64,000 nucleotides of DNA from NCBI GenBank assembly GCA_945890485.1, contig CAMDCN010000003.1:372001-436000 (forward strand), given 5' to 3'. The stretch comes from Candidatus Sulfopaludibacter sp. SbA3 (GTDB lineage Bacteria > Acidobacteriota > Terriglobia > Bryobacterales > Bryobacteraceae). The translations under genes and the position numbers were made by a program. The number at the start of each line of letters is the position of its first letter. The stretch's first letter is position 1. The notes under the pieces are model-generated. The model saw only the letters and a program-made list of their open reading frames with translations, ran no database searches and was not told the DNA's origin. Shown piece after piece: positions 2,070-40,390 of the stretch.

Positions 2070-4025
2070 ATGGACAAGCCATCTCGCCTCACCGAACTCC
2101 TCTCCGGCTGGCGATGGCTTGCCCTCCTCGCGCTCCTGACCCTCGTCTTCTTCTGGATCCCGCTTTTCGATCCGGCCACCTCCCCGCAATGGGACGCCAT
2201 CGACGTCCACTACTCGTCTCAGAAATACTTCGCCGCCCAGATCCTCAGCGGTCATCTCCCGTTCTGGACGCCGTACATCTTTAGCGGCTTCCCCTTTCTC
2301 GCGGACCCGCAGGTCGGCGCCTGGTATCCCCTCAACTGGCCGTTCTTTCTCCTCGGCATCACGCCCAAGGTCATCCAGGCCGAGATGGCGCTCCACACGC
2401 TGCTCGCCGCGTCCGGCATGTTTCTCCTGCTTCTGCACTTGGGGAACTCCCGCTGGGCGTCCCTCATCGGCACACTGTTCTTCGCCTTCTCCGGTTACTT
2501 CACCGATCATTCTCAACACGTCGGGCTCTATTGCGCGGCCTCCTGGCTACCCTGGCTCGCTCTCTTTCTGGTCCTGGCCACGGACCGCTCCCCACTTCGT
2601 TGGACCGGTGCAGCCGGCCTCGCCGCCGGGGCCATGGTCCTCGCCGGCGGCTTTCAGGCTGCTCTCTATGGCTACCTCGCCATCGCGCTGTTCTCCTCCG
2701 CCTGGGCCGTCCTCCATCGGACCGCCCTGACCCGCATCCTGCTCTTCCTCGCGGGCATGGTGGTCCTCGGCGTCATGCTCTCGGCCGTCATGTCGCTCCC
2801 CGGCCTCGAACTCACCGCCAATTCGTCCCGCGCCGGCGCCAACTACGCCAACACCGCGGATCGCCTCCTGCATCTCAAAGCGCTGGCCAACCTCTGGTGG
2901 CCGGATTCGACCGGCACCCTCAGCGCGACCTCCGCGCCCGACACCGCCTACTACCTCTATAGCGGAGCCCTGCTGCTCCCGCTTGCGCTGCTCGGCCTCC
3001 AGGATCGACGCTCCCGGGTAATCGGCCTCCTCGTCACTCTTCCGGCCCTCTGGTACATGCTCGGCCCCGCCTTCGGCCTCTACCGCATCGGCGAGGTGAT
3101 CCCCTTCCTGCACCAGGTCCGCGCCCCCATTCACGGCTGGTTTGCCGTTGTCTTCGGGCTCTCCATCCTGGCTGCCGCCGGCGTCGGCCGGCTTTCCAAA
3201 TTGCAGTGGGTCGCGGCGGCCCTCGCCGCCGTGGCCTTTGCCGATCTCTACTATTGGAACTCGCTCGTCCATCCCTCGGCCTACGCCCGAGCCAGTTGGG
3301 ATAGCACCTATGGCGCCCTGACCGAAAACACCCGCCAGAAGATTCAGAGCACCCAGCCGCCCTCCACGCGCCTCGATGCCCCGGACAAAATCGCCGCCCT
3401 CGGCCCCTTGAATCACCCCTTGGATCTCAACCTCGAAGCGACCTACGGATACAACCCGCTCGCGCTGACCCGCTACGAAGGGTTCCGCGCCGCCGCGGCG
3501 CAGAATCCCAAACTACTGCCCGCGATGAACGTCTCCCGCCGCCTCGACCTCCGTTTGGGAGGCATCGTGCCTGTGGAGAAGCCTCTCCCCCGCGCCTACT
3601 TCGCGCGGAGCGTCGAGGCCGTTTCCGGCGACGCCCAGTCGAAACAACGCTTGGCTACCCTCGATCCAGAGCACACGACGCTCCTGAATTCAGCTTCCCC
3701 CGTTTCGGTTGATCCGTCCGCCGTGGTCCTCGCCACTTCGCCCGCCGAGCAACAGATCACCGTCCGCTATCGAGCTGCCGCACCGGCCTTGCTTCGGATT
3801 GCGATCCCGTATTTCCCCGGCTGGACCGCCTCCATCGATGGCGTCAATCAACCGCTCCATCGCGCCGACCACGCCTTCCTCGGGGTCGTCGTCCCGGCTG
3901 GAGAGAAGGAAGTGCTCGTCCAGTATCACTCCACCCACTTCGCCCTCGGCTTAACGCTAAGCGCCGTCGCGCTCGCCGCTTGCCTCCTGCTCCTGTGTTA
4001 CCCGCGCCGCGCTGCAGTAAGCTAG
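2070..4025 (+). CDS. YfhO family multi-spanning membrane protein
   Basis: A 651-residue polytopic membrane protein of the YfhO type, related to GT-C fold glycosyltransferases. TM1 is near residues 15-32. The first periplasmic loop holds an acidic D-x-H pair (DAIDVHYSS), followed by the family-like stretch on the interior of the loop (GHLPFWTPYIFSGFPFLADPQ). Around ten more helices follow to about residue 400. A soluble C-terminal beta domain (about 545-625, IAIPYFPGWTASIDG...) comes next, then a last helix. In Firmicutes YfhO proteins have been linked to lipoteichoic-acid glycosylation; here the acceptor is unknown. It starts 9 bp after the previous stop. Confidence 0.75.
   Translation: MDKPSRLTELLSGWRWLALLALLTLVFFWIPLFDPATSPQWDAIDVHYSSQKYFAAQILSGHLPFWTPYIFSGFPFLADPQVGAWYPLNWPFFLLGITPKVIQAEMALHTLLAASGMFLLLLHLGNSRWASLIGTLFFAFSGYFTDHSQHVGLYCAASWLPWLALFLVLATDRSPLRWTGAAGLAAGAMVLAGGFQAALYGYLAIALFSSAWAVLHRTALTRILLFLAGMVVLGVMLSAVMSLPGLELTANSSRAGANYANTADRLLHLKALANLWWPDSTGTLSATSAPDTAYYLYSGALLLPLALLGLQDRRSRVIGLLVTLPALWYMLGPAFGLYRIGEVIPFLHQVRAPIHGWFAVVFGLSILAAAGVGRLSKLQWVAAALAAVAFADLYYWNSLVHPSAYARASWDSTYGALTENTRQKIQSTQPPSTRLDAPDKIAALGPLNHPLDLNLEATYGYNPLALTRYEGFRAAAAQNPKLLPAMNVSRRLDLRLGGIVPVEKPLPRAYFARSVEAVSGDAQSKQRLATLDPEHTTLLNSASPVSVDPSAVVLATSPAEQQITVRYRAAAPALLRIAIPYFPGWTASIDGVNQPLHRADHAFLGVVVPAGEKEVLVQYHSTHFALGLTLSAVALAACLLLLCYPRRAAVS
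4018..4023 (+). promoter_or_regulatory. TAAGCT element 6 nt before ATG 4030
   Basis: TAAGCT, then AGCGGG, then ATG. It spans the last codons of the YfhO gene. The AGCGGG spacer is also weakly Shine-Dalgarno-like. Confidence 0.35.
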
Positions 4026-32110: not shown

Positions 32111-33253
32111 ATGGCCCCTCTCACCGTTCTGAACGAAGAAGAAGCAATGCTCCAGAGTTCAGTGCGCCAGTTCGCACGCGAGCAGATTGCCCCGCGCGTC
32201 CGCGCTATGGACGACAGCGCCACGCTGGACCCCAAAATCCTGAAGGGACTCTTTCAACTGGGCCTGATGGGCGTCGAAGTTCCGGAAGAGTATGGCGGCG
32301 CGGGCGGTACGTTTTTTCATTCGGTGCTGTGCGTTGAAGAGATCGCCGCCGTAGATCCCGCGGTCGCTGTGATCGTTGATGTGCAGAACACGCTAGTGAT
32401 CAATGCGTTGCTCCGCTACGGCACGGACAAGCAGCAGGCGGCATGGCTGCCGAAGCTGAACGAATCGCTCGTCGGGGCCTATGCGCTCTCGGAGGCCGGT
32501 TCCGGCTCCGACGCCTTTGCCTTGGCGACAACGGCCCGGGCGGACGGCAGCAGCTATATTCTTGATGGCCGCAAGCTCTGGATCAGCAGCGCCCACGAGG
32601 CGGGCCTGTTCCTCGTCTTCGCAACGGTGAATGCGGCGGACGGCTACCGTGGCATTACCTGTTTTCTCGTGCCCCGCGAAAGCGACGGCCTCCAAATCGG
32701 CAAGAAAGAGGACAAGCTCGGCATCCGCGCGTCCTCCACTGCGGAGGTCTCATTGAACGGTGTTCGCGTCCATCGGTCCGCTGTGTTGGGCGAGGTCGGC
32801 AAGGGGTACAAAATCGCCATCGAGACGCTGAATGAAGGGCGGATCGCCATCGGCGGCCAACTGATCGGCCTCGCCCGCGGCGCCTACCAGCACGCTCTCA
32901 CCTACGCTAAACAACGCCGGCAGTTCGGCAAGCCCATCGCCGAGTTTCAGGGGGTGCAGTTTCAGCTCGCCGAGATGGCCACCAAGCTGGAAGGGGCCCG
33001 GCTGATGGTTTACAACGCGGCTCGTCTGCGCGAAGCCGGAAAGAGTTTCGTGACAGAGGCCGCCATGGCCAAGCTCTACGCCTCCACCGTCGCCGAGGAC
33101 ATCGCCTCGCAGGCCGTCGAGATTTTCGGTGGGATCGGCTTCACCAAAGACTCGCCGGTCGAAAAGTATTATCGTGATGTAAAGATTGGCCGGATTTACG
33201 AAGGCACGAGCAACATGCAGCGGATCACCATTGCCAAAGGGATTCTGTCGTAA
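32111..33253 (+). CDS. Acyl-CoA dehydrogenase
   Basis: A 380-residue FAD flavoenzyme that introduces a 2,3-double bond in acyl-CoA for beta-oxidation or branched-chain catabolism. Hallmarks are YALSEAGSGSDAF (FAD/substrate loop), WISSAHEAGLFLVFA, KLGIRASSTAEVSLNGVRV, YAKQRRQFGKPIAEFQGVQFQLA and the catalytic-Glu region KIGRIYEGTSNMQRITIAK. It most resembles short/branched-chain enzymes. No ETF or hydratase lies nearby. It lies 8 bp after the ABC ATPase. Confidence 0.92.
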   Translation: MAPLTVLNEEEAMLQSSVRQFAREQIAPRVRAMDDSATLDPKILKGLFQLGLMGVEVPEEYGGAGGTFFHSVLCVEEIAAVDPAVAVIVDVQNTLVINALLRYGTDKQQAAWLPKLNESLVGAYALSEAGSGSDAFALATTARADGSSYILDGRKLWISSAHEAGLFLVFATVNAADGYRGITCFLVPRESDGLQIGKKEDKLGIRASSTAEVSLNGVRVHRSAVLGEVGKGYKIAIETLNEGRIAIGGQLIGLARGAYQHALTYAKQRRQFGKPIAEFQGVQFQLAEMATKLEGARLMVYNAARLREAGKSFVTEAAMAKLYASTVAEDIASQAVEIFGGIGFTKDSPVEKYYRDVKIGRIYEGTSNMQRITIAKGILS

Positions 33254-33293
33254 CGGAGCCGTCGCCCGAAGCGTCCGATGTAACGGAGAGCGT

Positions 33294-34085
33294 ATGCGCA
33301 CGATTGCAGTGATGTTGATGGCCGCCAGCCTGCCCCTGTTGGCGAGCAAGACCGAACCGACCAGGGACGAGATCGCCGAGATCATCACGAAGTTCGCCGC
33401 CAAAGAGGCTGAGTTTGCCAAGGCTCGGGAACTCTATACCTATCGGCAGACCATCCGGATTCAGGAGTTTGAAGCTGGCGGCCAAGCCCGCGGGCGCTTC
33501 GATCTGGTTTCGGACATCATCTTTTCGCCCTCGGGTAAACGCACCGAGCGCATTGTTCGCGCCCCCTCCCCGACGCTCGTCCTCGTCTCCCTGTCACCGG
33601 AAGACGAACAGGACCTGCGGAGCGTTCAGCCGTTCGTTCTCACCACCACAGATTTGCCGAAGTATCAGGTCGACTACATCGGCAAGGAGAAGCTCGACGA
33701 GATTGACTGCTATGTCTTCGCCGTGAAGCCGAGGAAAATGGAATCCGGCCAGCGCTACTTCCAAGGCCAAGTGTGGGTGGATGACCTGGATCTGCAGATC
33801 GTCAAGTCCTACGGCCGCGCCACGGGCATCCTGAAGAAGGGCAACAATCAGCAGTTCCCCAAATTCGAAACCTGGCGTGAGCAGGTGGATGGGAAGTTCT
33901 GGTTCCCTGTCCTGACGAAAGCCGACGACACCCTGATGTTCGATAGCGGCCCGGTCGGCCTGAAAATGCAGGTGAAGTACGAGGACTACAAGCAGTTCCG
34001 GTCCACGACAACCATCACGTTCGGCGACGCGGTGGACACTCCGCCCACCAATACGCCGCCAGCGCCGAAACCGCCCAAGCCCTAA
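33294..34085 (+). CDS. Outer-membrane lipoprotein-sorting (LolA/LolB-like) protein
   Basis: A 263-residue predicted exported protein starting at ATG 33294 with GGAGAG upstream. A signal (MRTIAVMLMAASLPLLA) is followed by a lipoprotein-sorting-like half-barrel (YTYRQTIRIQEFEAGGQARG, RYFQGQVWVDDLDLQIVKSYG, KFETWREQVDGKFWFPV). The last about 20 residues are Pro/Thr-rich. In Acidobacteria such proteins are numerous and not all are Lol carriers; cargo unknown. Confidence 0.7.
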   Translation: MRTIAVMLMAASLPLLASKTEPTRDEIAEIITKFAAKEAEFAKARELYTYRQTIRIQEFEAGGQARGRFDLVSDIIFSPSGKRTERIVRAPSPTLVLVSLSPEDEQDLRSVQPFVLTTTDLPKYQVDYIGKEKLDEIDCYVFAVKPRKMESGQRYFQGQVWVDDLDLQIVKSYGRATGILKKGNNQQFPKFETWREQVDGKFWFPVLTKADDTLMFDSGPVGLKMQVKYEDYKQFRSTTTITFGDAVDTPPTNTPPAPKPPKP

Positions 34086-34175
34086 CTTTCGCAGTTCAAC
34101 TTTGCTTTCGCCGCATTCGGCCCCCGTGCGGTGCGCTGGTGCGATCCCTGTGTTTTAATAAGAGATTACGCCTAT

Positions 34176-35216
34176 ATGTCGAGCACAGGTTTCCGCATCC
34201 GCCGTACGGTAAAGGCCCTCAGCCGCCGCCTGCGAGAGTTGCGGATGATCGGGAAAGGTCTCTGGTCCACGGATCACATCGTGCAGGCGCACATCATTCC
34301 GATGCGCCGTTGCAACCTCTCCTGCACCTATTGCAACGAGTACGACGACATCTCGAAGCCGGTCGATCTCACGATCATGCTCGACCGGATCGACCATCTG
34401 GCGAAGCTCGGCACCACGCTGATTATGATCAGCGGCGGGGAGCCGTTGCTTCATCCGGATCTCGATCTCCTCATTAACCGGATCCATCACCACGGCATCA
34501 TCGCCGGAATGATCACGAACGGCTATAACCTCACGGCGGCCCGCATCGAACGGCTCAACCAAGCCGGACTCGATCACCTGCAGATCAGCATCGACAATGT
34601 GATGCCGGACGAGGTCTCGAAGAAGAGCCTTAAAGTTCTCGATAAGAAGCTGCAGCTCCTGCGTGAGCACGCCCTGTTCCACGTCAACATCAACTCCGTG
34701 TTGGGTGGCGGCGTGAAGTTCCCGACCGACGCCGTGAAGATCGGCAACCGCGCCCTCGAACTCGGGTTCAGCGCCACCGTCGGCATTATTCACGACGGGC
34801 AAGGCCAGTTGAAGCCGCTCGGCGATACCGAAATGTCGGTGTACCGCGAGTTCAAGGTTCTTGCCAAGCGCAGCTTCGCTCGTTTCGCGAAGTTTCAGGA
34901 CCGCATCGCCCTCGGCCAGCCCAGCGAATGGCGTTGCCGTGCCGGCGCCCGCTACATGTACATCTGCGAGGACGGCTTGGTGCATTACTGCTCCCAGCAG
35001 CGCGGCTTCCCGGGTGTGCCGCTGCTTGGCTACTCGAAAGCGGATATGCGCCGCGAGTTCCTCACCGAGAAGGGCTGCGCCCCGTACTGCACTGTCTCCT
35101 GCGTCCACATGACGTCGCTCATCGATTTCTGGCGGGCTCCGCAGACCTTGGCGCAGAAGGCCGTCACGAAGCCCGAAAAGACTGAGCTGGTCAATATCCA
35201 AAGCCACCGGGGCTAG
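34176..35216 (+). CDS. Radical SAM protein with C-terminal Cys-rich (SPASM-like) segment
   Basis: A 346-residue radical SAM enzyme. It has C-x3-C-x2-C in RRCNLSCTYCN (about 44-51), the GGEPLLHPDL cluster-distal motif and LDHLQISIDN. A C-terminal Cys set (WRCRAG, YICEDGLVHYCSQQ, GCAPYCTVSC) is compatible with an auxiliary Fe-S cluster. The N-terminus (MSSTGFRIRRTVKALSRRLREL) is a basic amphipathic helix, perhaps a membrane contact. Substrate unknown; no small precursor-peptide gene is seen next door. Its stop shares CTAG with the lectin gene. Confidence 0.8.
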   Translation: MSSTGFRIRRTVKALSRRLRELRMIGKGLWSTDHIVQAHIIPMRRCNLSCTYCNEYDDISKPVDLTIMLDRIDHLAKLGTTLIMISGGEPLLHPDLDLLINRIHHHGIIAGMITNGYNLTAARIERLNQAGLDHLQISIDNVMPDEVSKKSLKVLDKKLQLLREHALFHVNINSVLGGGVKFPTDAVKIGNRALELGFSATVGIIHDGQGQLKPLGDTEMSVYREFKVLAKRSFARFAKFQDRIALGQPSEWRCRAGARYMYICEDGLVHYCSQQRGFPGVPLLGYSKADMRREFLTEKGCAPYCTVSCVHMTSLIDFWRAPQTLAQKAVTKPEKTELVNIQSHRG

Positions 35217-36067
35217 GCCCGGCGGCGTCTGCGAATCATTCCTCCGGCGATTAACCCGGCGCCGATCAGCACCAGGGTAGACGGTTCCGGCACCTCGGTG
35301 TAGCTCCAACTGATGATGTCGTGGTTTTCCCACGCTCCGCCGGTCGAAGAGGTGAAGCCGATGTAGGCATTCTGCCCATCCTGCAGGTTCAGGAGACTGG
35401 CGAGATCCACGTTCGCAGCGAGAATCGGCGCCGACATATCCGTTAGAAACACCTGCAGCAAGCCCGGCGTATAGACAATCCGTGCGTTATAGGCATCACC
35501 GTTCGAAAGCTCTTGCGGCACTGTCGTAATCGCCAGGTTCGGGTTCGTAAAGGTGCCGTCAAACTCTGTCCCGGCGCAGTGCTCCGGCCGGTTCATCAGC
35601 GTGCCCAGGCTCTGGATCGCCACATGGTTGCCGTTCGGCTCGCAGTAACTCGGTTTGTTCGCCCAGGTATCGAACTCAACCGCCAGGCTATTCAGAATGT
35701 TGTAGTAGCCGATGCCGCTGGCATAGAGCCCCAGTTCATTTACGCCCTGTGCCTGCACGACGAAGGCAAAGCCATCGGCCCCGTCATTTTCCACTCCCTC
35801 TTCCCAGTCGGGCTTATAGCCGCCCCGCTCCGTGATCCGGAACGTGAAATCGCTCGTGAAGCCGTCCTGGACGTTGACCAATGAGTTGTACCAAGCCGCG
35901 CCGTTCTTGTTCTCGAGCGCCGGCGTGAGCCGTAATAAGTTAGACGACAGGCTGGCGTCGCCAATCAGACTAAGATTCGCCGGGGAGCTGAAGTCAGCGA
36001 AAGTAAACGAGTTCGCCAGCAGGCCGGTGCTGGCGGCGGACAAGAGCAGAGTAAGTCGAAGTAACAT
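35213..36067 (-). CDS. PEP-CTERM sorted L-type lectin domain protein
   Basis: A 284-residue secreted protein: a signal peptide (MLLRLTLLLSAASTGLLA), a legume/L-type lectin-like beta sandwich (NGAAWYNSLVNVQDGFTSDFTFRI, ADGFAFVVQ, LAVEFDTW) and a C-terminal sorting tag (VPEPSTLVLIGAGLIAGG, then RRRRR). The tag is processed by an exosortase, which is not in this window. The product probably sits on or is released from the surface and binds glycan. ATG 36067 has a GGGAGAGG Shine-Dalgarno. It precedes the YaiO end of the candidate polysaccharide operon. Confidence 0.85.
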   Translation of the reverse strand: MLLRLTLLLSAASTGLLANSFTFADFSSPANLSLIGDASLSSNLLRLTPALENKNGAAWYNSLVNVQDGFTSDFTFRITERGGYKPDWEEGVENDGADGFAFVVQAQGVNELGLYASGIGYYNILNSLAVEFDTWANKPSYCEPNGNHVAIQSLGTLMNRPEHCAGTEFDGTFTNPNLAITTVPQELSNGDAYNARIVYTPGLLQVFLTDMSAPILAANVDLASLLNLQDGQNAYIGFTSSTGGAWENHDIISWSYTEVPEPSTLVLIGAGLIAGGMIRRRRRA

Positions 36068-36156: not shown

Positions 36157-36990
36157 CTAGAACTCGAAGAACACGCGCCCAATCACCCCGGCCCGCGTAA
36201 ACGCCCCGAACTTCGTTTGCTGGTCGAACGCCACATAAACGCCGTAGTGGCGGCTCAGCCACTTCCGCAGGAAAATCTGCGTTGAAACGCTGTTCAAGTT
36301 CACTTCGAGGGGGGTCTGGGCGATGTACGTGTACACCTCTTTGCCTCCGCCCACGACCGTACCCACCCAGTATTTTCCTTCCTGGCCATACTGCACCGCC
36401 ACGCTGGCGGAGCTGCCAATCTTATTCCCGGGTTGATTCCGATTGATGAAGTAGTTGCCTTCAATCATCATGCGCTTGGGGTAGTAGAGGAACCCGGCGC
36501 TGTAGATCTGCCCCTTCACCGGTCCCTGAAAATTGAACTGCGAAACTCCGGCCGTCAGCAACAAGCGCCGTTGCAACACCGGCAGTTTATAGAAGCCCCG
36601 CACGTCGAAACGACGGCTGGCGAATAGGGAAATGCCGCCCCGCTCCGGCGCATAGCTGAACCCTTGCGTCGTGTAGAAATTCTTCGACCAGTTCGCGAAG
36701 CTGAAAAAGCTGAACGCCTGCTGCGTCACGCCCGGCCGCGTCTGCGAGTTGAACTGAAACACCGGGGTGAAGCGTGGAATCTTGCGGACCCACAACGTCG
36801 CGTCCGCCCCGCGCCAATAGCCGTAGCCGTTTGAGACGGCGTTGTGATACGTGCCGACCTCGAGCAGGTACGGCAGCGGGCTCTCGTACCCGGGTCGTTC
36901 GAAGGTCGCGGGAGAACCTGTCGTCTGTTCCGCGAACGCGGCCGGAATCAATCCAAGAAAAATGAGAATGCGAAGGATCATGGAGGTCAC
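36157..36990 (-). CDS. YaiO-type outer-membrane beta-barrel protein
   Basis: About 277 residues with a signal peptide (TSMILRILIFLGLIPAAFA). Alternating-hydrophobicity strands rich in aromatic residues follow and end in a C-terminal Phe (GRVFFEF), as expected for an outer-membrane barrel. The repeated Y/F-G patterns (GYGYWRGADATLWVRK, GYFYLPVL-like YKLPVLQRRL) match YaiO proteins. I place the start at GTG 36990, which overlaps the upstream TGA as GTGA; ATG 36981 is the alternative. Last gene of the GT2 operon and the likely outer-membrane exit for its polymer (inference). Confidence 0.75.
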   Translation of the reverse strand: MTSMILRILIFLGLIPAAFAEQTTGSPATFERPGYESPLPYLLEVGTYHNAVSNGYGYWRGADATLWVRKIPRFTPVFQFNSQTRPGVTQQAFSFFSFANWSKNFYTTQGFSYAPERGGISLFASRRFDVRGFYKLPVLQRRLLLTAGVSQFNFQGPVKGQIYSAGFLYYPKRMMIEGNYFINRNQPGNKIGSSASVAVQYGQEGKYWVGTVVGGGKEVYTYIAQTPLEVNLNSVSTQIFLRKWLSRHYGVYVAFDQQTKFGAFTRAGVIGRVFFEF

Positions 36991-38123
36991 GCTCTTGCCT
37001 TTTTCGATTGCAGCCACGCCATCGGTGTCGAAATGGCGATCACGCGGTGCGCCGACGATACCTTGCCGTTAATTACGATGTTGCTTTCGAGAGTCAGCGC
37101 CCTCGTCGCATGCGCTGCCACGGGCAGCTTCTCCCGCAGTCCCCGCACCCCAAACGAAAGCCGCATCTCCCCGCCCGCTTGCAGCAGCGACTGGAAGTAC
37201 ACATCGGGTTTCAGCACCAGGTTGCCGTCCGCCACCAGATTGCCCTTCACCACCGATGCCGGACCAATCGTGATGTTTCCGTGCGCCTTCACGTCCGACT
37301 CCAGTAAGCTCTCCTTCCCGCACGAGAAGTGGCCCCGGACTACCAAGGGCGCTCGCAAATGCAACGGCGCCGTCACGTCCAGGTTGCCTTCATAGAAGTA
37401 AGTTCCGCCTCCCATCGAAAACAGCTTGGCCGGGTCGAACCCGTTGGCCGCGCGGGCCGTCTCTCCGGCCCGATGCGGGACCTGCACCAGCGCGCCTCGC
37501 CCCGCCGAAAGCTCAATCGAATCGTCGTTTCGGCCCTCGGTCACAATCTCCGGCGCGAACAACGATTGGGCATAGGCGCCTGGCAGGAATTCAATCGCCG
37601 TCCGCGAGGTCGCCCGCGAATGGATTGCCGTGTCGGCGCCAATCGTCAGTTTGCCCGCCGCGTCCACCCATCGCCGCACCGTCACGCCCTCGCCCAACTG
37701 CAGCGCTCCGTCCGCCGCAATCGCCTGCAGCGAAGTGCCCTCGCCAATGTCGCCATCGCCTTTCACCATCAGTTCGTTGCGGAAGTCGCAATTCGGCCCG
37801 CAGGCGAACGCCCCTTCGGTCACCAGGATCTCTTTTTCCACGCGTCCGCCCGGATATTGCACCGTTGGCGCCACGTAGATCCGTTCCTTCCCGTGGTCAT
37901 AAACCCGCAGGCCCGCCGTCGAGTTCGTCGCTGCGGGCAGCGTCGCCAACCAGTGTTTGAGTTTCCGCCGGAACGATTGGCCGAAGTAGTCTTCGAGGCG
38001 CACATAGCCCATGTCTAACTCCGACGACTGCTTGCCCCGGATCGCGAGCCACGCCCGGTGCGCCAGGGAGAAGTGCAGATAGAAGATCGCGAGGAAGATT
38101 GCGGAAAATATCAAAAAGGCCAT
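36987..38123 (-). CDS. Membrane-anchored polymer-forming (bactofilin/beta-helix-like) protein
   Basis: A 378-residue protein with one N-terminal helix (about 1-20). Two blocks of short repeated beta-helix turns follow (about 88-165 and 245-345), such as ELMVKGDGDIGEGT, LQLGEGVTVRRW, KLTIGADTAIHS, PLVVRGHFSCGKESLLES and HGNITIGPASVVKGNLVADGNLVLKP. This is the hydrophobic-every-second-residue pattern of bactofilins and left-handed beta helices. It may scaffold the synthase at a membrane patch (inference). It is 4 bp downstream of the GT2 gene and overlaps the YaiO-like gene. Confidence 0.7.
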   Translation of the reverse strand: MAFLIFSAIFLAIFYLHFSLAHRAWLAIRGKQSSELDMGYVRLEDYFGQSFRRKLKHWLATLPAATNSTAGLRVYDHGKERIYVAPTVQYPGGRVEKEILVTEGAFACGPNCDFRNELMVKGDGDIGEGTSLQAIAADGALQLGEGVTVRRWVDAAGKLTIGADTAIHSRATSRTAIEFLPGAYAQSLFAPEIVTEGRNDDSIELSAGRGALVQVPHRAGETARAANGFDPAKLFSMGGGTYFYEGNLDVTAPLHLRAPLVVRGHFSCGKESLLESDVKAHGNITIGPASVVKGNLVADGNLVLKPDVYFQSLLQAGGEMRLSFGVRGLREKLPVAAHATRALTLESNIVINGKVSSAHRVIAISTPMAWLQSKKARA

Positions 38124-38127
38124 TGGA

Positions 38128-39492
38128 TCAGTCCCCCATTCCTTCGTTGCTGGCGTAGTAAAGACCCTTCACAGACTGCTTTGCCGCTCCGGCCGGCGTC
38201 GCCCCGGCGCCAAAGGACTGCCCTTCGGCGTCCATGCGCGTACGGTGCGTCTTGTACCAGCCATCACCGCCGCTACCCCAGAAACGATTCCAATAGAATT
38301 TCCGCAGCGCATTGCAAATGGCGCCCGTGTTTGCAAAGAAGTTCAACAGGCTCAACGGCATCAGCAGCGCCCGCAGACGGGTGCCGTCCAGCAGTGTCGC
38401 TACCCCGATCTCAAGGAACGTCGCCTGGTTAGAAAACAGCAGGTAGCCGATAATCAGCATCGCCACCGGGAGTACCGGCACCGCGTGGGCCTCGGGAATA
38501 AAGAACAACACCAGCGAAGCGACCCAGCCGATGACGATGATCGGCGCTGTCAAATACATGGCCAGTAGGAAGAGCGCGTCCGTCTTCTCCTTCCGGCTGA
38601 GGAAGCGGGCGCGGAGCAGGTCGGGCCAGTAGTTGTGCAGGCATTCGGTGTGCCCGGTTACCCAACGGCTCAGTTGCCGGCGGCGCACTGCCCAATCCTG
38701 CGGCACCTCTTCGTAGCACTCCGCCCGGTTGACGTACGCCGTCCGCCAGCCGTTCAGCAGTAGGGCGAACGTCAGGTCGGTATCCTCGGTCAAAGACTCC
38801 GGATTCCAACCGCCCACCGCCCGCAGCGCCGCTGCGCGAACGCCGCCCACTGTGCCTCCGAACTGTGCTGTAAACCCGAGATTGAATCGCGCCTGTTGCA
38901 CCGACTGGTAGCCGGCGCAGCGTTCGAGCGAAAGCAATCCCGAAAGCAAGCTGTCGCCGATGTTGTGCGGCACCACCCGTCCCATCACCGCCCCGATCTC
39001 GGGGTCGACGAAGGGCGCCGTCAGCATCTTCAAGACCGCCCGGCCGGGCACGTAGTCGGCGTCGAACATCAGATAGATGTCACCGGTCGCCAGCTCCGTG
39101 GCCTCCACCAGGGCCGCCGGCTTCCCGCCCACACCCTCGGTGCGGTGGTACGGCTTGATGAATGGATACCGCCCCGCGAACTCGTCCACAATCGCGCGGG
39201 TGCCGTCCGTCGAGCGGTCGTTCACCGGAATGACTTCAAGCAGTTCCCAATCGTAGTCGCAGTCGACGAGCGCCTGCAGGACATCCCGGGCGACCTTTTC
39301 TTCGTTGTGCATCGGGATGAACACCGTCACCCGCGGCATCACGAAACCGACGAGCTCATTGGTCTCCCGGGGATGTTCGAGGCGCATCCGGGAATAGCCC
39401 AGATAGTAGTGCCGCACCGCATAGGCGCCCAGCACCAGCATGGACAGCACAATCAGGACCCACGAAACTGCGATTACAGCTGTGACTGCCAT
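38128..39492 (-). CDS. Processive family 2 glycosyltransferase (cellulose/PNAG synthase-like)
   Basis: A 454-residue inner-membrane synthase. One N-terminal helix precedes a GT-A domain with the motifs of processive GT2 enzymes: ND at 91-92, DAD (144-146), TED (235-237) and QLSRW (QxxRW, 273-277). Three or more C-terminal helices (about 310-420) form the translocation pore. There is no PilZ domain, so direct c-di-GMP control as in BcsA is not evident. It should polymerise a beta-linked sugar and thread it out. The start overlaps the preceding membrane gene by 19 bp. Confidence 0.88.
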   Translation of the reverse strand: MAVTAVIAVSWVLIVLSMLVLGAYAVRHYYLGYSRMRLEHPRETNELVGFVMPRVTVFIPMHNEEKVARDVLQALVDCDYDWELLEVIPVNDRSTDGTRAIVDEFAGRYPFIKPYHRTEGVGGKPAALVEATELATGDIYLMFDADYVPGRAVLKMLTAPFVDPEIGAVMGRVVPHNIGDSLLSGLLSLERCAGYQSVQQARFNLGFTAQFGGTVGGVRAAALRAVGGWNPESLTEDTDLTFALLLNGWRTAYVNRAECYEEVPQDWAVRRRQLSRWVTGHTECLHNYWPDLLRARFLSRKEKTDALFLLAMYLTAPIIVIGWVASLVLFFIPEAHAVPVLPVAMLIIGYLLFSNQATFLEIGVATLLDGTRLRALLMPLSLLNFFANTGAICNALRKFYWNRFWGSGGDGWYKTHRTRMDAEGQSFGAGATPAGAAKQSVKGLYYASNEGMGD

Positions 39493-40274
39493 GAACTACG
39501 GACCCCCCAAAGTTGCCCCGAAGTTCGGTAGACCGAAATCGAGTAGAAGAACAACAGGAACAACAGATCACTCAACGTGCCCAGCGCAAACCAAAGCAGC
39601 GGCATGAACAGAAGGCCCGTGTAGTGCAGCATGCCGATGCAAAACACGAAACGCAGCACGGAGAAGAAGAAACCGTACACCTGCACCAGGGCCATCCATC
39701 CCAGCCCCACGCCCAGGTTCGGCTGGGGCAGCAGAAACAGCAGCAGGCTCACGAACGGCATCAGCAACCAGACCAGCAACTCCTGCCGCAGCCAGATCTG
39801 CCCGAAGACTTTGGACTGCAGTTGGAACGTGTCGAAGAAGACATTCACCACCGCAGAGACGAGCAGCAGCACAATCAGGAAGTTCGCGAGGTTGCGAAAA
39901 AGCGAAAAGCGCCGCGCGACAATCAGCAGCGCCACAATGCCCAGAATCAGGGCGAATCGAGCTCCTTCGGAAACTTGCGAAAACGTCGGAACAGGCACCA
40001 GGGGGCCCGAGCCAGGCTCAAGGCCGGGAAAGACGGCGACCGGCTCCCAGCCCGCGTTCGGAATACCCGCCCATCGCAGCAGGGTGTCGGCCACGGAAGA
40101 GTGAAACGCCATGAGGGGAACCGCGAAGTACGCCAGCAAGATAAAGACAATCAGGGCGAATCCCAAGGCGACTCCCACTCGTGCCCGTGTCAGCGGAACG
40201 GACCTTACGCTCCGGTGGAGATAGATGGACGTCCGGCGCGCGGCTCGTCCCCCGGTGCTGATAGCTGGATTCAT
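39474..40274 (-). CDS. Hypothetical six- to seven-helix membrane protein (first gene of GT2 operon)
   Basis: A 266-residue membrane protein with a basic N-terminus. Hydrophobic segments lie near 33-57, 108-125, 128-148, 170-188, 190-212, 215-235 and 237-252, with a periplasmic loop near 60-105. I do not recognise a family. It overlaps the GT2 gene by 19 bp, which argues for co-translation and a role with the synthase. AATAAT ends 5 nt before the ATG, a leaderless-type arrangement. Confidence 0.6.
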   Translation of the reverse strand: MNPAISTGGRAARRTSIYLHRSVRSVPLTRARVGVALGFALIVFILLAYFAVPLMAFHSSVADTLLRWAGIPNAGWEPVAVFPGLEPGSGPLVPVPTFSQVSEGARFALILGIVALLIVARRFSLFRNLANFLIVLLLVSAVVNVFFDTFQLQSKVFGQIWLRQELLVWLLMPFVSLLLFLLPQPNLGVGLGWMALVQVYGFFFSVLRFVFCIGMLHYTGLLFMPLLWFALGTLSDLLFLLFFYSISVYRTSGQLWGVRSSWQSQL

Positions 40275-40285: not shown

Positions 40286-40354
40286 CTGGCCACCGCGCCA
40301 GCGTCCAACAATGGACACCCTGTACCAAACGACCATGGTTACCTGGGTCCATCG

Positions 40355-40390
40355 CCTTAGTACTGGGGGACCGGACAAGCCGTACTAAGG
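40355..40390. promoter_or_regulatory. 36-bp dyad between the MoxR and GT2 operons
   Basis: A perfect 9-bp inverted repeat CCTTAGTAC (40355-40363) and GTACTAAGG (40382-40390) around an 18-nt spacer. It begins 5 bp after the RDD stop and lies about 80-115 bp upstream of the GT2 operon start. No T-run follows on either strand, so I prefer an operator or processing stem over an intrinsic terminator. Confidence 0.5.

Follow-up and report, generated by a model that had tools for sequence, protein, structure and literature searches.

The window analysed here, a 64,000-nucleotide stretch (C3:372001-436000) of a 7.1-Mb acidobacterial genome (G000), contains a compact operon of four genes, designated A to D (Table 1). 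Named relatives of this genome are mostly Bryobacterales or unclassified Acidobacteria MAGs. We re-read the ORFs and coordinates, and the gene order on the minus strand and the three junctions given in the initial annotation were reproduced exactly: there is a 19-bp overlap between A and B, a 4-bp gap between B and C, and a 4-bp overlap (GTGA) between C and D. The start of D was placed at the GTG codon at position 36990, whereas the mechanical ORF list runs this gene out to 37017. A further co-directional gene (E), absent from the initial annotation, lies 89 bp downstream of D and is probably the fifth gene of the cluster. Upstream of A, 121 bp away and in the same direction, we found an RDD-SpoIIM-DUF58 cluster. 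In several relatives, this cluster is located several kb from A or was not found near it, which indicates that the unit starts at A.

Table 1. Genes and sequence elements of the operon and its immediate surroundings (window coordinates).
Feature	Position	Strand	Description
Gene A	39474..40274	-	266-aa membrane protein, undescribed family
Gene B	38128..39492	-	GT2 polysaccharide synthase
Gene C	36987..38123	-	N-terminal TM anchor and beta-solenoid, bactofilin-like
Gene D	36157..36990	-	YaiO-family outer-membrane beta-barrel
Gene E	35213..36067	-	L-type lectin with PEP-CTERM signal
Conserved motif GGTACNGNNNGNCCATTGT	40308..40326	-	~35-50 bp upstream of A; possible promoter/operator
Inverted repeat TAGTAC-N18-GTACTA	40358..40387	.	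upstream of A; possible regulator site
Radical-SAM gene	34131..35216	+	convergent to the operon
LolA-like gene	33186..34085	+	convergent to the operon

The inverted repeat upstream of A occurs at two sites in the genome, the other being C30:6587, beside transposase-like and chemoreceptor-like ORFs. It was rejected as a genome-wide regulon marker because there are only these two sites and a reversed-pattern control matched too. No Rfam element or riboswitch was found around the operon at gathering score.

The protein encoded by B is composed of an N-terminal TM segment, a catalytic domain and C-terminal TM segments, with no PilZ domain, and its Pfam GT2 domains match well over cut-off. The ND, DAD, TED and QLSRW (QxxRW) motifs reported in the initial annotation are all present and vary little or not at all within the family; those for nucleotide-sugar binding and catalysis, together with QxxRW, are retained in relatives at 43–44% identity. 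The top NCBIfam match was PgaC/IcaA (TIGR03937), with 103.7 bits against a cut-off of 422.3. The cellulose synthase catalytic subunit model (TIGR03030) gave 54.5 bits against a cut-off of 699.1, and NodC and CelA scored below PgaC/IcaA and far under cut-off. A profile of the B family matched the family-2 glycosyltransferase 6yv7 first in the PDB, followed by cellulose synthases; 6yv7 is a GT2 and not a cellulose synthase, and the match spans the catalytic domain of B only. Judged by its motifs and profile scores, B is a GT2 of the processive type that belongs to none of the named equivalogs. A related GT2 at locus L126 (8278-10314) carries a long N-terminal extension, which may be an extracytoplasmic domain. 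The source genome also encodes a second, cellulose-synthase-like GT2 (G000:C6:171830-172759, L070) with a PEP-CTERM gene nearby. This gene was rejected as a copy of the operon, being a lone CESA-like gene without the operon genes.

Gene A had been described as an unrecognised multi-helix membrane protein, and this description holds, with no meaningful match in Pfam or NCBIfam. The protein has six predicted TM helices, an N-terminal IY.HRSVR motif, and an extracytoplasmic helix and hairpin at residues ~51–91. Its AF2 model (pLDDT 79, pTM 0.72) consists of a TM helix, the extracytoplasmic helix and hairpin, and five more long helices. Based on the strongly basic N-terminal tail with its conserved I..HR..R motif, the N-terminus of A is probably cytoplasmic. 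In fold searches with this model, Foldseek returned nothing at E ≤ 0.001 and VIA-align gave only Z scores below 8, so that a new and a known fold are both possible. The spacing of Arg and His residues was suggestive of a divergent exosortase. We rejected this assignment on the basis of an hhalign probability of 0.1 against exosortases from related genomes, the lack of a Cys conserved across the A family and the lack of a Pfam or NCBIfam match.

The AF2 model of C (pLDDT 86) features an N-terminal helix followed by a two-block beta-solenoid formed by residues 73–195 and 234–363. The earlier designation of C as bactofilin-like finds support in the family and is weak for the window protein alone, which scored 14.9 bits (E 0.03) against Pfam Bactofilin (PF04519; gathering score 27.9). 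Scores of its relatives range from 11.9 to 34.4 bits, with most of the distant members at 25–34. The relative at L064 passes the cut-off (34.4 bits), those at L127 (27.2), L126 (26.2), and L065 and L106 (both 25.3) fall just under it, and the one at L062 gave no PF04519 match. The C family also scores better against Bactofilin than against Hexapep. When the family profile was compared with the PDB, the best match was bactofilin 6ria (E 4e-4), with LpxD and ice-binding proteins next at E ~0.01. A search with the fold of C returned generic solenoids only, with no fold match to the right-handed beta-helix core of bactofilins, so the link to bactofilins comes from profiles. Within these, the bactofilin core is matched by the C-terminal half of the C family, whereas the TM anchor and the second, N-terminal solenoid are different from bactofilins.

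Bactofilins act in the cytoplasm. In nearly all of the 14 C homologues, the region before the TM segment is uncharged and positive charges follow it; according to the positive-inside rule, the solenoid of C is therefore probably cytoplasmic. On this profile evidence, C is a membrane-anchored bactofilin-like beta-solenoid, the match being a modest one. An alternative places the beta-solenoid of C in the periplasm, where it would bind or modify the polymer, like the beta-helix epimerase AlgG for alginate, and gives C no cytoskeletal role; this appears unlikely to us. It would account for the two-part solenoid, which is unlike the short bactofilin core, and for other beta-helix families scoring almost as high as bactofilins, but the charge pattern favours a cytoplasmic C-terminus, no catalytic motif was recognised in C, and bactofilin is the top profile match.

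The barrel encoded by D was confirmed as YaiO rather than a porin by two curated models, Pfam YaiO (PF19413; 51.3 bits, cut-off 23.9) and NCBIfam YaiO (TIGR04390; 97.6 bits, cut-off 32). From its GTG start, D encodes a signal peptide, and it has no TPR region, the barrel model spanning residues 43–277. An alignment profile of the window D, which is of very low diversity, gave no match to E. coli YaiO; both proteins are over the Pfam YaiO cut-off. Among the related loci, A-B-C are intact in L031, L032 and L025 but D is not: it contains two in-frame stops in the first, is reduced to a remnant in the second and has a broken frame in the third. A-B-C are likewise present at L040, L127 and L128, where no D was found. 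Part of this damage is possibly MAG assembly error. From this pattern, D looks more dispensable than A-B-C, and it may be an accessory component, or the exit may lie elsewhere. The operon had been read as combining synthesis, scaffold and exit functions. The families of B, C and D are as named in that reading, whereas the role of D as the exit is less secure, with D broken or missing beside intact A-B-C.

Gene E encodes a legume-type (L-type) lectin with a PEP-CTERM sorting signal at its C-terminus; both the Lectin_legB (97.3 bits) and PEP-CTERM (28.0 bits) matches are above the Pfam cut-offs. Most members of the genus carry this gene downstream of D, and we found no other lectin of its type in the source genome. 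The sorting signal is likely in use, given that the genome encodes an EpsH exosortase with an EpsI-like neighbour and contains 24 PEP-CTERM matches. Copies of E are also present in the clusters at L064 (~35% identical) and L106 (similar), from two genomes of one distant genus. That two separate lineages share a lectin gene at this position suggests that the lectin binds the product of the operon. At the loci with damaged D, we found a divergent piece of the lectin gene in L031 and detected none in L032.

Relatives of gene A were identified in 17 of the 41 near genomes. Their neighbourhoods contain A-B-C, usually with D and E and with the order kept, followed by the convergent radical-SAM gene; A-B-C-D-E is the genus-wide arrangement, and most close relatives show all five genes. 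In L040, from another genus of the same family, A-B-C are present, and D and E are absent from the stretch examined. The wider survey was confined to Acidobacteriota, for which 396 genomes provided an even but partial sample of the phylum. Profile searches found gene A in eight of these and the B family, at a membership cut-off of E ≤ 1e-60, in nine genomes from six families. All eight genomes with A are among the nine with B; in the remaining one (G303), the cluster contains a divergent A. A and C adjoin B in 9/9 genomes at identities down to ~20%, which is also the identity of A between the family extremes. D adjoins B in seven of the nine (G000, G251, G228, G153, G290, G380 and G303); it was not found in the cluster stretches of G320, where the contig ends early, and G091. 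A separate search identified G463, with A-B-C and the beginning of a D-like barrel. The order at L126 is B-C-A-D, and it is thus the gene set and not the order that is conserved. A scan of genome contigs with the gene A profile gave matching records that were all acidobacterial, and no relative of A was found on plasmids.

The conserved neighbourhood thus extends far beyond the source genome. As read from these gene neighbourhoods, the A-B-C linkage far exceeds chance and is kept across the genus and distant acidobacterial families. Because D is damaged or absent in some genomes where A-B-C are intact, we rank A-B-C as the constant core and D as a frequent component, with E and modification-type genes as variable ones. 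The concept of a minimal four-gene machine oversimplifies the unit, since D is a frequent companion of the A-B-C core and the complement of additional genes (lectin, deacetylase-like, MBOAT, sulfatase-family, epimerase) differs by lineage. Based on its constant presence with B, the simplest reading of A is that it is likely a subunit of the synthase.

Whereas no periplasmic modification enzymes are encoded in the window operon, modification-type genes neighbour the cluster at L065, L127 and L126. At L065 (3322-5184), a GH42M-like, lipoprotein-like protein adjoining the core gave a weak polysaccharide-deacetylase match below cut-off and no meaningful relative in the PDB. A lipoprotein-like protein beside the core at L127 (529-2376), with the GH42M-like domain and the weak deacetylase match as well, is 45% identical to it; the two loci come from different bacterial families. 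A second, shorter GH42M-like protein (2446-3315) also adjoins the core at L127. Flanking the cluster at L126 are genes for an MBOAT protein, a sulfatase-family protein and, directly upstream, a UDP-GlcNAc 2-epimerase, and an ORF near the L106 cluster reads as a putative UDP-GlcNAc 2-epimerase. Based on the epimerase genes at L126 and L106 and the deacetylase-like proteins at L065 and L127, we infer that the substrate of B is probably a UDP-N-acetylhexosamine. In addition, a PgfS/ArnC-like polyprenyl-phosphate GT2 is found near the clusters at L064 and L106.

This last gene bears on the nature of the product. B might instead make a membrane-retained glycolipid or envelope-bound glycan that A flips or modifies, with C positioning envelope growth, and YaiO and the lectin being incidental or downstream users. 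Such a product would fit the polyprenyl-phosphate GT2 near L064 and L106, the loss of D and E in lineages retaining A-B-C and the roles in cell shape for which bactofilins are best known (PMC10259793). We nevertheless consider it improbable, since B combines C-terminal TM segments with all the motifs of processive synthases, YaiO occurs with the core in 7/9 phylum-sample genomes, and lectin and polymer-modification-type genes are recurrent.

Synthase-dependent exopolysaccharide systems are defined by a synthase, a c-di-GMP-binding part, periplasmic modifiers, and a TPR and outer-membrane pore, and a systematic survey counted five polymers made in this way (PMC7112194). Like the operon described here, the five systems (cellulose bcs, acetylated cellulose, PNAG pga, alginate and Pel) encode in one operon a processive-type GT of the inner membrane together with a membrane partner that is always present and a barrel for the outer membrane. 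Modification-type genes lie near the operon described here in some lineages. This operon differs from the five in that its barrel is a YaiO without TPR and that the unnamed membrane protein A and the bactofilin-like C belong to its core. The initial annotation had noted the lack of BcsB, BcsC, PgaA/B and PilZ, in agreement with our Pfam and NCBIfam searches, which found no match to any of these in A-B-C-D and placed the PgaC and CelA scores of B far under cut-off. Nor did these searches identify PilZ or another recognised c-di-GMP receptor in A to E, where one of an unrecognised type is possible. By its motifs and Pfam GT2 match, B represents the synthase of the definition; no counterpart of the c-di-GMP part was found, and of the TPR and pore only a barrel was. 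With a synthase, a barrel without TPR and no c-di-GMP part, the operon would be a variant of the synthase-dependent kind and a member of none of the five types.

The presence of yaiO near a GT2 gene in E. coli, pointed out in the initial annotation, was verified and the similarity goes further. The K-12 locus (NC_000913 380069-384616) has the order yaiS-yaiP-yaiX-yaiO, encoding a PIG-L-type deacetylase, a GT2, a hexapeptide beta-helix protein and the barrel. It is still less likely than the alternatives above that the operon is a divergent relative of this locus, with C as a degenerate hexapeptide acyltransferase and not a scaffold. The order GT2, beta-helix protein, YaiO is common to both, YaiP aligns with B at 28% identity over 249 residues (catalytic domain only), and the deacetylase adjoining the E. 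coli genes has a deacetylase-like counterpart in L065. However, the E. coli annotation shows no A-like gene at this locus. YaiX is a putative acyltransferase, IS2-interrupted in K-12, with pieces that look like hexapeptide repeats and have no TM, whereas the C family scores higher against Bactofilin than Hexapep and has a TM anchor.

Two other systems offer partial parallels. In Gluconacetobacter, a cytoplasmic cytoskeletal structure, the cortical belt, has been proposed to line up cellulose synthases for the formation of ribbons; which proteins make up the belt was not established in that work (PMC7811197). The proposed principle is the same as that suggested for C, whereas here a bactofilin-like gene is located inside the synthase operon. 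XrtG/XrtP-associated GT systems (TIGR03111, NF053846) likewise feature a GT2 beside a multi-TM protein in an exosortase context, but B reached only 48.8 and 46.1 bits against the respective cut-offs of 364 and 520, and A has no exosortase match. In the open-access literature, we found no description of a bactofilin in a synthase operon, and for YaiO, glycosyltransferase and exopolysaccharide jointly, only a review on barrel folding.

The best explanation for these observations is, in our judgement, that the operon probably encodes a synthase-dependent exopolysaccharide system, most likely one that falls under none of the five surveyed types and has a bactofilin-type scaffold of its own. In this system, B would polymerise an activated sugar and push the chain across the inner membrane. 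By analogy, A would serve as an obligate membrane subunit (a channel, co-polymerase or gate) in the place taken by PgaD, Alg44 or BcsB elsewhere. Filaments or patches of C beneath the membrane would cluster the synthases, in the manner proposed for the cortical belt. Where D is present, the polymer would leave through it, and E, released by the exosortase pathway, would tether the polymer at the cell surface. More tentatively, the operon may represent a further class of polysaccharide secretion, so far seen in Acidobacteriota, that combines a GT2 with an obligate A, clustering of synthases by C filaments, export by YaiO and tethering by a lectin. If true, this would add another type to the five recognised synthase-dependent polysaccharide systems (PMC7112194) and tie a bactofilin-like scaffold genetically to a polysaccharide synthase. 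One small operon thereby makes the cytoskeletal line-up of polysaccharide synthases testable; it also places YaiO in a genomic context and brings in a new protein family, A, whose likely role is that of a synthase subunit.

The radical-SAM and LolA-like genes convergent to the operon (Table 1) adjoin it genus-wide, and also in L040, where the cluster is without D and E. A functional link between these two genes and the operon is possible.
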